Below, in pieces: positions 3,824 through 7,066 of a DNA stretch of 24,608 bases. Within the stretch, counting starts at the first letter, position 1. Each line of letters starts with the position of its first letter. Under the pieces are notes generated by a model. That model was not told the origin of the DNA, ran no database searches, and saw only the letters and a list, made by a program, of their open reading frames with translations. The position numbers were made by a program, and so were the translations under genes. Source of the DNA: a virus; IMG/VR virus record IMGVR_UViG_3300005399_000006, positions 1-24,608 of that record, one strand, 5' to 3'.

Positions 3824-3836
3824 GCTTTAAGCTCAC
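3815..3836. other. Hairpin at the convergent gene junction
   Basis: TGAGCT-TTA-AGCTCA (3821-3835), overlapping GTGAGCT/AGCTCAC (3815-3836), sits exactly where the rightward membrane genes meet the leftward repressor. It is symmetric, so it could slow transcription from both sides, but no clear T tract follows on either strand. A weak bidirectional terminator is only a possibility. Confidence 0.3.
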
Positions 3837-4279
3837 GCCTTCTTCTTTAAAGACTGAGCTGCGAGAGAAGCCGTTACATAATCACCTGTAACCTTACCTC
3901 GCATCGAAATTTTAAAGGCGCTCTTCAGTAGATCGAAATCCACACCGCTAACATCATCGCCGCGCTGCAAGCTTAATGCTTTGAAGCTGGTAATTGCTTG
4001 ATCGAAAGCTTCTTCACTTACCCTTATGTAATACTCTTCACCCTTGTCACCAGATTTAGGCTGCGCGTTTTTCTCGCCTTTCATTATCCATTCATAGGGA
4101 ACGTTTAACGCTTCACTTATAGGCAAGTAATAACGGCTTTGAGGGCTCTTGGTTTCTATGTTCGTTATTGTTTGCTGAGTGGTTCCGATCATATCGGCTA
4201 AATCTTTCTGAGAAAGATTCTTCTCCCTTCGGAGTTCAGCAACTCTTCTTCCTGGCGTTGACAAAATAAACAATCTCAT
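3833..4279 (-). CDS. XRE-family phage repressor (CI-like, no peptidase domain)
   Basis: A 148-aa protein whose residues 10-65 form an XRE/Cro-CI helix-turn-helix (RRVAELRREKNLSQKDLAD, then TTQQTITNIETKSP and YEWIMKGE). It is followed by a roughly 80-residue C-terminal region (YYIRVSEEAFDQAITSFKAL ... SMRGKVTGDYVTASLAAQ) that I do not recognise. It is divergent from the Cro-like gene across two operators, the classic lysogeny switch layout. It lacks an S24/LexA-type autocleavage domain, so induction by RecA-stimulated self-cleavage is not expected; how it is relieved is not visible. The Shine-Dalgarno is poor (AGGGAA about 12 nt upstream of ATG 4279), fitting low-level expression. Confidence 0.85.
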   Translation of the reverse strand: MRLFILSTPGRRVAELRREKNLSQKDLADMIGTTQQTITNIETKSPQSRYYLPISEALNVPYEWIMKGEKNAQPKSGDKGEEYYIRVSEEAFDQAITSFKALSLQRGDDVSGVDFDLLKSAFKISMRGKVTGDYVTASLAAQSLKKKA

Positions 4280-4304
4280 TGTTGTTGTGTTCCCTATGAA
4301 TTTA

Positions 4305-4318
4305 ACAAATACATTTGT
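4305..4318. promoter_or_regulatory. Operator 1 of the repressor/cro region
   Basis: ACAAAT-AC-ATTTGT is a perfect palindrome with 6-bp arms and a 2-bp centre, 25 bp upstream of the repressor start. It fits ACAARYNNRYTTGT, the pattern shared with the operator at 4329-4342 and the one in the leftward promoter. Confidence 0.65.
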
Positions 4319-4327
4319 AGTTTAGCA

Positions 4328-4343
4328 AACAAGCTTGCTTGTT
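4328..4343. promoter_or_regulatory. Operator 2 of the repressor/cro region
   Basis: AACAAGC-TT-GCTTGTT is a perfect palindrome with 7-bp arms. Its centre is 24 bp from that of operator 1, about two helical turns plus 3 bp. It overlaps the candidate -35 (TTGTTG, 4339-4344) of the rightward promoter, so a bound repressor should block cro transcription. Confidence 0.68.
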
Positions 4344-4368
4344 GTCCAAAAAACAACTAAAGTATGTA
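4339..4368 (+). promoter_or_regulatory. Candidate rightward early promoter (PR-like)
   Basis: TTGTTG (4339-4344), an 18-nt spacer and TATGTA (4363-4368) precede the Cro-like start at 4401 by about 30 nt. The -35 lies inside operator 2. Matches to consensus are moderate. Confidence 0.4.
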
Positions 4369-4400
4369 AAAACAAGTAAGCACAACTACGGAATTTGTTA

Positions 4401-4676
4401 ATGAGCGCGCTAAAAAAAGCAATAGAAATAGTATCTGGCGGTAACCAGACACACTTTGCAGCAAAGGTAAGTGCAGAGGTTGAGAAGGTAAACCAGTCAG
4501 CGTTGCTTAAAAAGCCAATCCCAAAACTTAGCCAGCAGCTGGTTCACTACTATCTGAAAAATGATGTTGAGTGTGCCGCTCACTTTGTGCCGATTATTTC
4601 TAATTTAACCAAGGGTGAGGTATCGCCTCATGAGCTTCGCCCAGACATCTACCAAGTACAGGAGCGAGCAGCATGA
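4401..4676 (+). CDS. Cro/YdaS-like DNA-binding regulator, 91 aa
   Basis: The start is the ATG at 4401 (MSALKKAIEIVSGGNQTHF); an in-frame TTG lies two codons earlier. It has the YdaS/Cro-like plan: an N-terminal helix (ALKKAIEIVSG), a recognition region (QTHFAAKVS ... KLSQQLVHYYLKND), and the family's typical ending, GEVSPHELRPDIYQ, close to the VTRHELRPDIF-type ending of these proteins. It is divergent from the repressor and should act as the early regulator that turns the lysogeny promoter down. The stop overlaps the next small gene (ATGA). Family assignment rests on recalled motifs. Confidence 0.8.
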   Translation: MSALKKAIEIVSGGNQTHFAAKVSAEVEKVNQSALLKKPIPKLSQQLVHYYLKNDVECAAHFVPIISNLTKGEVSPHELRPDIYQVQERAA

Positions 4677-4750
4677 GCAAAGTAATCACATTCCCAAGCC
4701 GTAAAGCAGCACCTAAGCCTGATCACGAACCTATGAGAAGGGCAGCATAA
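4673..4750 (+). CDS. Tiny hypothetical peptide, 25 aa
   Basis: ATG at 4673 overlaps the cro stop (ATGA), and its TAA shares a base with the next start (TAATG at 4748-4752). The peptide is basic (MSKVITFPSRKAAPKPDHEP, then MRRAA). Coupling at both ends is the only evidence that it is translated. It resembles short coupling peptides of early phage operons; function unknown. Confidence 0.45.
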   Translation: MSKVITFPSRKAAPKPDHEPMRRAA

Positions 4751-4914
4751 TGCGCTCGCCTTTCTGCTGGTGGTGTAAGCGTAACTGGGCTGAGTTTAAG
4801 CATAAGTTTGCGACTGATGTTCAGTTTCGTATAGCGGCTATCGTCGTTCCAGCGCTGTTAGGCCTAATGGCTTACCTAGCAAGCAACAGTTATTTACTTC
4901 ACAAATTCCTGTGA
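4750..4914 (+). CDS. Small membrane protein, 54 aa
   Basis: A 54-aa frame starts at the ATG at 4750, overlapping the preceding stop. It begins with a Cys/Trp-rich segment (MRSPFCWWCKRNWAEF). One predicted membrane span follows (RIAAIVVPALLGLMAYLA) and a short tail (SNSYLLHKFL). It is the last gene before the terminator at 4921. No family is recognised. Confidence 0.5.
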   Translation: MRSPFCWWCKRNWAEFKHKFATDVQFRIAAIVVPALLGLMAYLASNSYLLHKFL

Positions 4915-4920
4915 CTTTTT

Positions 4921-4946
4921 GGATACGCAGTTTGTATCCGTTTTTT
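4921..4946 (+). terminator. Intrinsic terminator after the cro operon
   Basis: GGATAC (4921-4926) and GTATCC (4934-4939) form a 6-bp stem with a 7-nt loop, followed by G and six T (4941-4946). It begins 7 nt after the stop of the last small gene. Like lambda tR1, it would limit rightward early transcription unless polymerase is modified. Confidence 0.7.
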
Positions 4947-5047
4947 ATTAGCGTTTTTGCCCTGTGCCGAGGTGATAAAACGATGTTGACTTTGAATTAG
5001 TCACGCGTAAAGGCCGCTTGAGGAAGTTATCAGGATAAAACGCTAAT
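4947..5047 (+). ncRNA. ~100-nt structured RNA element upstream of the gp49-like gene
   Basis: An 11-bp perfect closing helix pairs ATTAGCGTTTT (4947-4957) with AAAACGCTAAT (5037-5047). Nested inside are TGATAA (4973-4978) with TTATCA (5027-5032), and a hairpin TGACT-ttgaatt-AGTCA (4987-5003). The element begins at the end of the terminator's T tract and stops 26 nt before the next start codon, so it could be a leader, an antitermination RNA or a separate small RNA. No known family is recognised. Confidence 0.5.
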
Positions 5048-5072
5048 CAAAAATCAACCCAAAGGAAAGAAG

Positions 5073-5369
5073 ATGAACGACAACGATATTGAAAGTGAAA
5101 TTCAGGAAAAGGGCTTAACTGCGCCACGCGTAACACCTGAAATCATTGAAAGCAAAATCAAAGCAGAGCAATACCACATTTTCCACGGCACGACATTTAC
5201 GACCTGCCTTCTAACGCTTGAAAACGGATTCACCGTGCTTGGTGAATCAGCTTGTGCTAGCCCTGAAAACTTTGATGAAGAGATCGGGCGAAAGATTGCG
5301 CGCGATAACGCTAAAAACAAAATTTGGTCGCTTGAAGGTTATTTACTCAAAGAGCAGTTAAGCAAGTAA
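5073..5369 (+). CDS. N4 gp49/Sf6 gp66-family phage protein
   Basis: A 98-aa protein matching the phage gp49/gp66 family as recalled: the PRVTPEIIESKI opening and the very conserved block TLENGFTVLGESACASPENF, then EIGRKIARDNAKNKIW and LEGYLL. The biochemical role of this family is not established. An AAGGAAAG lies 6-10 nt upstream of the ATG at 5073. It stands alone between two structured RNA regions, in the rightward early direction, so it is probably an early protein. Confidence 0.88.
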   Translation: MNDNDIESEIQEKGLTAPRVTPEIIESKIKAEQYHIFHGTTFTTCLLTLENGFTVLGESACASPENFDEEIGRKIARDNAKNKIWSLEGYLLKEQLSK

Positions 5370-5549
5370 TTTTAAGCAGTAGCGTTTGACGTAGCGCTTT
5401 AAACGTCCTGGTTGTACCGCTCGAACCTCAGTCCAAATAGGTGAGGACAATCAGAAAAACGATGCGTAAGTCGGAGGGGGTCGGTTTTCCCCGGACATGG
5501 GCCAGTGACCTGAATGGTGGCGATAAACGGGTGACACTTGGAGAGACAA

Positions 5550-5640
5550 GGCGTTTTGAGAAGGTTTGTTGGTTATCAGCAATGCCTCTTCACATTTACT
5601 GAGTGTGATGGTTAATCAATAAGCTTTCTCAAAGCGTTAT
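5550..5640 (+). repeat. Repeated hairpin module, copy 1 (within ncRNA)
   Basis: It begins with GGCGTTTTGAGAAGGT and ends with TCAAAGCGTTAT, both identical in copy 2. Bases 5551-5575 pair without interruption with 5613-5637: 25 base pairs including six G:U wobbles. Inside the loop, TCACA/TGTGA can form a small apical hairpin. Confidence 0.72.
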
Positions 5641-5839
5641 TGCTGCTGGCTGTGGGCAAATGAGGGTGCCCACTATAAACCCCACGGAATTAACCGACAA
5701 AGCCATGGGCCAGAGAACGTTCGGATAAGAAATGGCACCGGCAACGCTTTCTAGTATCGGTAACGGTAAGCAATAGGGCTTATTCATCCGAGTTGGTGCC
5801 AAGGTGACGACCATGGCCGCGCCTACTGCGAAAGTGTAG

Positions 5840-5929
5840 GGCGTTTTGAGAAGGTGCTTCGCCTAGTTGCAACCACTTTGAGTAACGTATTAATTCTCAA
5901 AGGAGTAGGCACCTTCATCAAAGCGTTAT
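5840..5929 (+). repeat. Repeated hairpin module, copy 2 (within ncRNA)
   Basis: It has the same boundary sequences as copy 1, offset by 290 nt upstream and 289 nt downstream. Bases 5841-5849 pair with 5918-5926, and 5850-5857 pair with 5909-5916 around a bulged A (5917). The inner part differs from copy 1 on both strands of the helix (GAAGGTGC with GCACCTTC) and still pairs. A further 7-bp stem, CTTTGAG/CTCAAAG, joins 5876-5882 to 5896-5902. Confidence 0.72.
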
Positions 5930-6139
5930 GCGGATTGCACAAATGCGGTCGGCGCTTTAACTGGGTGACGCAGTATATCGGTCTGATGCTTACGGAATAA
6001 CGAGGTAGCGCCGCAAGTGTTGATCCTACCTAGTCGGTAAAGCGTGAAGCGCTAATCACGTTAACCCCGACCAAGCAGGCTGGGAGGTCTGTTACCAATA
6101 ACACTCACATTTAGATTTGTGATTGTTACAGGCAATAAA

Positions 6140-6176
6140 AAACCCCGCCTGCCGTGGAAAGCAATTAGCGGGGTTT
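6140..6176. terminator. Hairpin terminator at the 3' side of the ncRNA
   Basis: AAACCCCGC (6140-6148) pairs perfectly with GCGGGGTTT (6168-6176) around a 19-nt loop. On the plus strand only TTT follows, so rightward termination may be partial. On the minus strand a run of T follows the stem, so leftward termination is stronger. It lies 24 nt before the initiator gene, whose expression needs read-through or a further promoter. Confidence 0.6.
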
Positions 6177-6199
6177 GATGAATAAACATCGAGGTAAGT

Positions 6200-7066
6200 A
6201 TGACTCAAACAGCCACCGTAATCAACTTTGATAGGCCCGTAGTGAAAGCAGATATAGAGAACGGCTTTACTCGCATCGCTAACGAGCTAACAGAAGCCTT
6301 AATGCAAAACGCCGCCAAATTATGTGGGCGCGAATTTCAAATAGTTCACGCAATTATTCATAAGACATTTCGCTTTCATAAGAAGTCGGACTGGATAAGC
6401 AATTCACAAATTTCAGAAATGACTGGCATAGCCCAATCAAAAATAAGTGAGTTGAAAAAGTCGCTTATTGCCAAGAATGTTTTGGTATTAGATGGGCGTG
6501 AAATGTCAGTTAATACTACTGTCTCAGAATGGCAGGATTACCCGAAAAAGGGTAAAGGTGAAATTACCCGAAAAAGGGTAACGGCTTACCCAAATTCGGG
6601 TAACGGTTTACCCGAAAAAGGGTATAAAATTACCCCAAATCGGGGTACACATAAGAAGACTACTAATACAAAAGATAATTATACAAAAGATAATAGTCGC
6701 GTAGCCGCTCCGAAACCATCTTCTGCCAAGCAAAAAAAATCAGATGTTAAGTCTGAAATTCTAGCACTACCAATCCCTACTGGGTTGTCGTTTGCCATGT
6801 GGCAAGAATGGGTTGAATGCCGTTCTGAAAATAAAAAGCCAATGACGATTCGCTCAGCCAAGATGCAAATTAGCAAGCTTGAAGAATGGCAAGCTAAAGG
6901 CCACAACCTTGATGAAATCATTCAAACCAGCATAGCGAATAACTATCAAGGCTTGTTTGAACCTAAAGGCTTCTCTCAGGGCAACGGTAACACCTGGCAA
7001 AACCGTAAAACTCAAAACAACATCGATGTTCTGTCTGATTTCGTGCGAGGTGGCAACCATGATTGA
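6200..7066 (+). CDS. Replication initiator, lambda O-like
   Basis: A 288-aa protein. Residues 20-105 match the phage replication protein O N-terminal domain: IENGFTRIANELTEALM, then REFQIVHAIIHKTFRFHKKS and DWISNSQISEMTGI. This domain binds origin iterons. Residues 113-150 are encoded by the iterons themselves (KGKGEITRKRV, GNGLPEKGY) and form a linker. The C-terminal part (residues 185-288; LSFAMWQEWVECR) probably contacts the helicase-loading partner encoded next. GAGGT lies 5 nt upstream of the ATG at 6200. The stop overlaps the next gene by 8 nt. An O-like protein carrying its origin inside its own gene is the lambda plan. Function confident; the C-terminal role is inference. Confidence 0.88.
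   Translation: MTQTATVINFDRPVVKADIENGFTRIANELTEALMQNAAKLCGREFQIVHAIIHKTFRFHKKSDWISNSQISEMTGIAQSKISELKKSLIAKNVLVLDGREMSVNTTVSEWQDYPKKGKGEITRKRVTAYPNSGNGLPEKGYKITPNRGTHKKTTNTKDNYTKDNSRVAAPKPSSAKQKKSDVKSEILALPIPTGLSFAMWQEWVECRSENKKPMTIRSAKMQISKLEEWQAKGHNLDEIIQTSIANNYQGLFEPKGFSQGNGNTWQNRKTQNNIDVLSDFVRGGNHD
6538..6647. other. Replication origin: five palindromic iterons
   Basis: Five 18-bp repeats of the form TTACCC-N6-GGGTAA start at 6538, 6564, 6586, 6608 and 6630, the last four exactly 22 bp apart. Three have the spacer GAAAAA, one AAATTC and one CAAATC; copies 4 and 5 each depart slightly from the arm consensus. They lie inside the initiator gene, as in lambda, and are presumably bound by the initiator's N-terminal domain. 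An A+T-rich stretch follows. Confidence 0.85.
6666..6694. repeat. A+T-rich direct repeat beside the iterons (possible unwinding element)
   Basis: ATACAAAAGATAAT occurs twice, at 6666-6679 and 6681-6694, one base apart. The stretch 6650-6696 is very A+T-rich and immediately follows the iterons, the position of the unwinding region in the lambda origin. Confidence 0.55.

Follow-up and report, generated by a model that had tools for sequence, protein, structure and literature searches.

Modular structured RNA before the replication gene O of a temperate phage, with a pseudoknot element resembling one in unrelated phages

The window, the whole stretch of 24,608 nucleotides analysed here, comes from a marine bacterial virus recorded in IMG/VR and carries at positions 5370-6199 a long gap between a gene of the Phage_gp49_66 family and the gene of replication protein O. 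A repressor-like HTH gene, a YdaS-like gene and an integrase gene are found nearby; together with gp49 and O, they assign the interval to the early region of a temperate phage. The HTH and YdaS-family genes (3833-4676) mark the immunity region of this phage. The following features are distinguished:

4947-5048, plus strand: module I, another small element with an inverted repeat (4941-4957/5037-5053), lying upstream of gp49
5073-5369, plus strand: upstream gene, Phage_gp49_66 family (PF13876, E 2.6e-31), outside the RNA
5375-5550, plus strand: conserved 5' module (A), from the 19-sequence alignment A1
5408-5454, plus strand: long hairpin in the 5' module, CUGGUUGU / ACAAUCAG, with both-sided changes in 4 of 10 pairs and in 3 of 3 inner pairs
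5500-5550, plus strand: pseudoknot element, hairpin GGCCA-GUGACCUGAA-UGGUGGC, then GAC-A-CUUG-GAGAGA-CAAG (5533-5550)
5550-5640, plus strand: hairpin H1 (inverted repeat I1), constant base GGCGUUUUGA / UCAAAGCGUU and variable interior
5641-5751, plus strand: exchangeable module B, closed by AAAGCGUU (5632-5639) / AACGCUUU (ending at 5750)
5752-5843, plus strand: exchangeable module C
5840-5929, plus strand: hairpin H2, with the base of H1 and a different interior
5930-5958, plus strand: module D, with a terminal CGCUUU that complements the closing AAAGCG of H2
5959-6095, plus strand: exchangeable 3' module E1, with the alternatives E2, E3 and E4 in relatives
6096-6176, plus strand: 3' segment T1 and terminal hairpin AAAAAACCCCGC..GCGGGGUUU, from the locus sequences
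6200-7066, plus strand: downstream gene, replication protein O (PF04492, E 1e-32), outside the RNA

The gp49-family gene also adjoins the array in the related loci L005, L007, L024, L034, L038, L061 and L073. Module I (~100 nt) recurs as a block inside the arrays of L010, L014 and L076, and an intergenic gap of Shewanella phage SppYZU01 holds a 77% match to it.

A preliminary description of this DNA saw no plausible gene in these ~830 bases, and this holds. The longest ORFs overlapping 5370-6199 reach 53 aa on the plus and 61 aa on the minus strand. A conserved protein frame, which would argue against an RNA, was looked for in 13 homologous arrays without obvious genes; each forward frame contains 5-20 stops, and no frame is common to them. 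The protein-coding reading of the interval, including the annotation QIV64695.1 of Alteromonas phage P24 over module B, was rejected for lack of a shared frame. In P24, the frame annotated for this hypothetical protein (L002:1033-1371) overlies RNA module B and is probably a spurious gene call.

The interval, read on the plus strand, folds far better than shuffled sequence: its minimum free energy is -296.2 kcal/mol, while 20 dinucleotide shuffles gave -257.0 ± 6.7 and none of them reached the native value (z -5.9). A repeat run gave z -6.6 on the plus and -6.2 on the minus strand; as the latter folds nearly as well, the energy alone gives no strand. The RNA is read on the plus strand because the G-U pairs of helix 5 and the U-G pair of every hairpin base turn into A-C mismatches on the other strand. 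The dense packing with perfect or near-perfect helices reported earlier is real, as seen in I1 (5552-5575/5613-5636) and in the second hairpin (5840-5929).

Compensatory base changes across homologues are present in the 5' module, the hairpin bases and the pseudoknot element. In A1 (19 sequences), 99.0% of the cells in the 33 named pairs are paired, and 11 of these pairs changed on both sides, a number reached by 0 of 500 shuffles; when the pairing partners are slid, pairing falls to 32-42%. The hairpin loop of the pseudoknot, ACC(U), pairs with GGU at 5530-5532, directly before GAC. Its hairpin stem covaries, and the loop pairing is kept in 19 of 19 sequences. Covariation thus supports the 5' module and the hairpin bases, and homologues and covariation agree with the earlier claim of a large structured noncoding RNA region in the phage early region, conserved in related phages.

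Relatives of the interval 5375-6190 occur in at least 28 phage or prophage contigs of Alteromonas and Thalassotalea, and a distant BLAST search finds Alteromonas phage P24. Through the neighbours of the O protein, the pattern GTGACACTTGGAGAGAYAAG and genome contigs, 29 array contigs were gathered, among them Alteromonas sp. IB21 and a Thalassotalea MAG. Their general layout is a 5' module, hairpins with a constant base and a hypervariable interior, exchangeable modules, and a 3' hairpin before gene O. The 26 hairpin interiors of relatives fall into 15 classes, less than 80% alike between classes, over bases in which 9.3 of 10 basal positions are paired (7.2, at most 8.5, with the halves permuted). 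Between the array ends lie the RNA modules B, C, D, E1-E4, F, G, I and J or coding cassettes. Nearly all arrays end with a AAAAAACCCCGC..GCGGGG hairpin directly before the next gene; in the window, the terminal hairpin (6096-6176) is a strong intrinsic terminator on the minus strand and a weak one on the plus strand.

The arrays match each other in patches, with blocks of 95-98% identity beside unrelated sequence. Module B is present in P24 (L002), L013, L015, L023, L025, L028, L061 and L073 and missing from the others; in L013, it is 97.6% identical to that of the window, while the rest of the two arrays differs. Counting hairpin identity, the 29 contigs show 24 arrangements. The length ranges from ~350 to ~1550 nt, and coding cassettes and terminators interrupt the array in relatives. 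Two phages found through O (L008 and L009) keep the array and have lost the 5' module; its presence in all other arrays is partly a matter of selection, since the loci were mostly found through it. The array is hence a mosaic and not one fixed giant RNA, and it is regarded here as a new type among the large RNAs of phages, one composed of modules instead of a single unit.

The sequence CGCTTT follows within 160 nt of 23 of the 30 distinct hairpin ends (0.7 in shuffles). This complementarity to AAAGCG is suggestive, not proven, as the modules concerned belong to only 3-4 types and are not independent. The AAAGCG strand can close either the hairpin upstream or the module downstream, so the array may also switch.

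The preliminary description had compared the region with the class of GOLLD and ROOL, RNAs marked by a homo-oligomeric cage; on such a reading, the whole 830 nt would form one ornate particle. These RNAs are phage-borne, 500-900 nt long and free of ORFs, with an elaborate fold and often a link to tRNA arrays (PMC12286853). The window's region resembles them in size, phage habitat, lack of ORFs and exceptional folding energy, and the small pseudoknot element described below provides a link to tRNA arrays. However, modules are swapped whole, inserted or missing, the length varies about fourfold, and genes are inserted. In GOLLD, the 3' half is universally conserved and the 5' half variable; in the array, on the contrary, it is the 5' module that is conserved, and at least four different 3' modules occur. 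The nested long-range pairing of all 830 nt finds no support either, because whole blocks between the helices are swapped, lost or gained in relatives. The idea of a single RNA-only machine is likewise not supported, given the same combinatorial build, the coding cassettes and the loss of the 5' module in two phages.

The Rfam search that had been suggested returned no family. A cmscan of the window against all 4227 Rfam families, among them GOLLD, ROOL, OLE and HEARO, gave no gathering-level match, and at E ≤ 5 only two sub-threshold, terminator-like matches on the minus strand, in line with the minus-strand terminator of the terminal hairpin. Eight records that are related or bear the element were also searched with the GOLLD model RF02032, which gave no match at E ≤ 10. 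In the related and element-bearing loci, gathering and permissive searches returned only tRNAs, one sRNA-Xcc1 match (in a Pasteurellaceae locus) and sub-threshold tRNA- or terminator-like matches. The interval is a structured phage RNA outside every Rfam family, GOLLD and ROOL included, and a giant RNA of that type is quite unlikely. Of the earlier interpretation, which left the choice between a GOLLD-like RNA and a new family, the structured phage RNA region stands; one fixed giant RNA of a known class is not supported.

Variable hairpins with a conserved base between exchangeable cassettes are also typical of integron attC sites, whose consensus has inverted AAC and GTT boxes at the two ends. 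This reading was rejected: the hairpin ends GGCGTTTTGA / TCAAAGCGTT have no inverted AAC/GTT pair, and the G-U pairs favour RNA. No integron integrase was seen, the integrase of the window being a phage tyrosine recombinase (PF00589). No single known family tested works like this array.

The coding cassettes include a small secreted-type protein, a 59-aa phrog_1761 protein and others, and in several arrays they carry an intrinsic terminator on the coding strand. A cassette leader, ACAAGCCCCTTAATTGGGGTTAAGTCGGTG (L010:3497-3540), precedes the coding cassettes in many arrays; a copy with 88% identity is found in Pseudomonas phage phiPMW (KU862660, 15373-15414), adjoining an annotated terminator. 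The 59-aa protein (L010:2802-2978) is predicted to fold as a helical hairpin (pLDDT 93), and 367 phage records contain matches to it. The array might be a counter-defence locus, in which RNA decoys or antitoxin-like modules and small anti-defence proteins are shuffled by an arms race. The fast exchange of modules and small genes at one site would fit, as would the small phage-specific orphans among the cargo proteins and the resemblance, by eye, of the phrog_1761 protein to the Acb2 anti-CBASS family. Pfam, NCBIfam, PDB sequence and fold searches did not confirm the Acb2 identity, however, and no RNA module resembles a known anti-defence RNA; this explanation is considered highly improbable.

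Bacterial hosts rarely carry a homologue: one was found in 1 of 60 genomes of the genus of genome G001 and in 2 of 397 of its family, as well as in 2 of 140 genomes of the family of the Actinobacillus genome. A search of plasmids gave no homologue.

The pseudoknot element leads beyond these phages. A search with the pattern TGACANTTGGAGAGACA yielded copies adjoining tRNAs in unrelated phages, and the pattern AAGCC-N4..34-GGCTTGAC-N2..12-GGAGAGAC occurs in at least 120 IMG/VR stretches; read backwards as a control, it occurs in none. The topology is that of the window's element: a stem with a GAAAGCC loop, a GGCUU pairing to that loop, GAC, and a covarying GAGAGA stem. The element measures ~48 nt, with 22 invariant positions among the matches listed, many of them unpaired. 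In the alignment of its copies (A2), 102 both-sided changes were counted against 30 in shuffles, and stem P3 is 97% paired, with four covarying pairs. For stem P1, at least three pairs are formed in 66 of the 109 copies listed, against 39 (at most 51) when permuted.

The loop pairing is invariant among the pattern matches by construction of the search. It is kept with other letters as AUGCC/GGUAU (L087), AACGC/GCGU (Pasteurellaceae) and ACCU/GGU (the window and Alteromonas phages). A scan for the single compensated variant AACGC/GCGTT found only two stretches, so the covariation of the loop pairing rests on few divergent lineages.

A model built from the unrelated phages (R1) matches the window at 5507-5550 (18.1 bits, E 0.003) and all tested Alteromonas and Pasteurellaceae copies at E 0.0003-0.011, except L004 (E 2.6). 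The score of the window copy is modest and comes mainly from the 3' half, GAC..GGAGAGAC; hence, this copy is called a divergent relative of the phage-wide element. Judged from these sequence matches, homology between the two is likely, though not certain. The element is recorded here as an RNA motif absent from Rfam 15. A literature search found no paper naming it, with preprints, subscription papers and large catalogues of candidate phage RNAs outside its scope. Phage ICP1 makes an abundant ncRNA of ~800 nt (PMC7567579), in which the element is absent. In Vibrio phage 1.033.O (L226) and Bacillus phage 055SW001 (L228), matches to the 3' half of the element lie in unannotated gaps of ~950 and ~860 bases, respectively, possibly further large RNAs.

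The position of the element is telling. A tRNA starts 2-11 nt after it in 20 of the 112 copies listed, where ~2 are expected within 60 nt. Among the listed copies before an ORF with a Shine-Dalgarno sequence, 25 of 40 lie 13-33 nt from the start codon. Several copies may occur in one phage, also in tandem, and the tRNA arrays of L087, L208 and L129 contain multiple copies. The position before functional RNAs, the multiple copies and the site at the joint between fixed leader and cargo suggest a boundary role: the element may act in cis to form, protect or insulate the 5' end of the RNA cargo that follows. This proposal is tentative and given somewhat less than an even chance. Against it count the compactness of phage genomes, which alone shortens spacers, the 51 of 112 listed copies with no tRNA or gene start detected just downstream, and the arrays of L008 and L009 without a 5' module.

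A further point against a boundary comes from the Pasteurellaceae. Mannheimia phage 587AP2 and three prophage loci of Pasteurellaceae have an early leader with a promoter and a boxA-like GCTCTTTAAcAAT at its start and the element at its end, a position of the element that fits antitermination at least as well. These promoter-boxA leaders (L048, L080, L103 and L225) are roughly 200-300 nt long. In 587AP2, the leader lies downstream of cI, the usual place of nut and put sites. Antitermination is the main rival: the element, like HK022 put RNA or boxA/nut, would bind RNA polymerase and permit read-through of the structured, Rho-prone, terminator-bearing cargo into the replication genes. The intrinsic terminators within the cargo cassettes of several arrays agree with this, and put RNA, too, is short, consists of two hairpins and acts on terminators of both the intrinsic and the Rho-dependent type (PMC9378689).

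The likeness to put RNA and to lambda nut or rrn boxA leaders, all cis-acting leader RNAs of early operons, nevertheless remains partial. The published description of putRNA gives two stem-loops and a triplex and mentions no pseudoknot (PMC9378689), while the element is a pseudoknot with a GAGAGA hairpin, is multi-copy, stands before tRNAs and genes, and lacks boxA in most phages. In other phages, boxA (GCTCTTTA) was found upstream in 0 of the 110 copies listed, and none was found near the window's RNA; boxA as a general companion of the element was rejected, there being no enrichment outside the Pasteurellaceae. A site just downstream of an early promoter is seen in the Pasteurellaceae leaders, and no promoter was scored on the plus strand at 4700-6400 of the window. 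Moreover, antitermination needs neither multiple or tandem copies per phage nor tight spacing to tRNAs and start codons. It is considered unlikely.

A special form of the boundary idea is that the element is an unreported self-cleaving ribozyme, which would cut transcripts beside tRNAs, genes and cargo modules. Its small size, its pseudoknot and its many invariant unpaired positions are compatible with this, and it directly adjoins phage tRNAs, as do the HDV-like theta ribozymes (PMC10879173). Theta ribozymes differ in fold, however, and sit at the 3' ends of tRNAs, while the element sits 5' of the tRNA and its cleavage is putative. Rfam ribozymes match neither the window nor the element-bearing loci, and no single conserved position marks a cleavage site. 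A ribozyme thus appears very improbable.

In the boundary model, the interval would be an untranslated modular RNA segment, transcribed as one RNA within a rightward early transcript leading into gene O. The element would mark, protect or generate the 5' end of the RNA that follows, be it a tRNA, an mRNA or, here, exchangeable cargo, which could be swapped behind it with the boundary undisturbed. The cargo would consist of RNA modules in series, joined by the standard-base hairpins, and these identical joints would allow phage recombination to shuffle modules and small genes. A wider reading, possible but doubtful, is a new class of phage RNA put together as from a kit of parts, with interchangeable folded modules and standard closing helices. 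The widespread pseudoknot introducing it would itself be a new RNA, acting in processing or cleaving itself, that stands before tRNAs and genes of phages.

To our knowledge, few abundant transcripts are understood as poorly as the large RNAs of phages. In the present case, one such RNA can be followed block by block as it evolved: the 24 arrangements separate fixed parts from cargo, which opens each part to tests by deletion or exchange. The pseudoknot element, found in phages whose hosts differ widely, is so short that its cleavage or read-through could be assayed simply, and the Pasteurellaceae promoter-boxA leaders offer a clean system for this. Through it, many intergenic gaps that now lack annotation would gain a function, as would the spacers in phage tRNA arrays.
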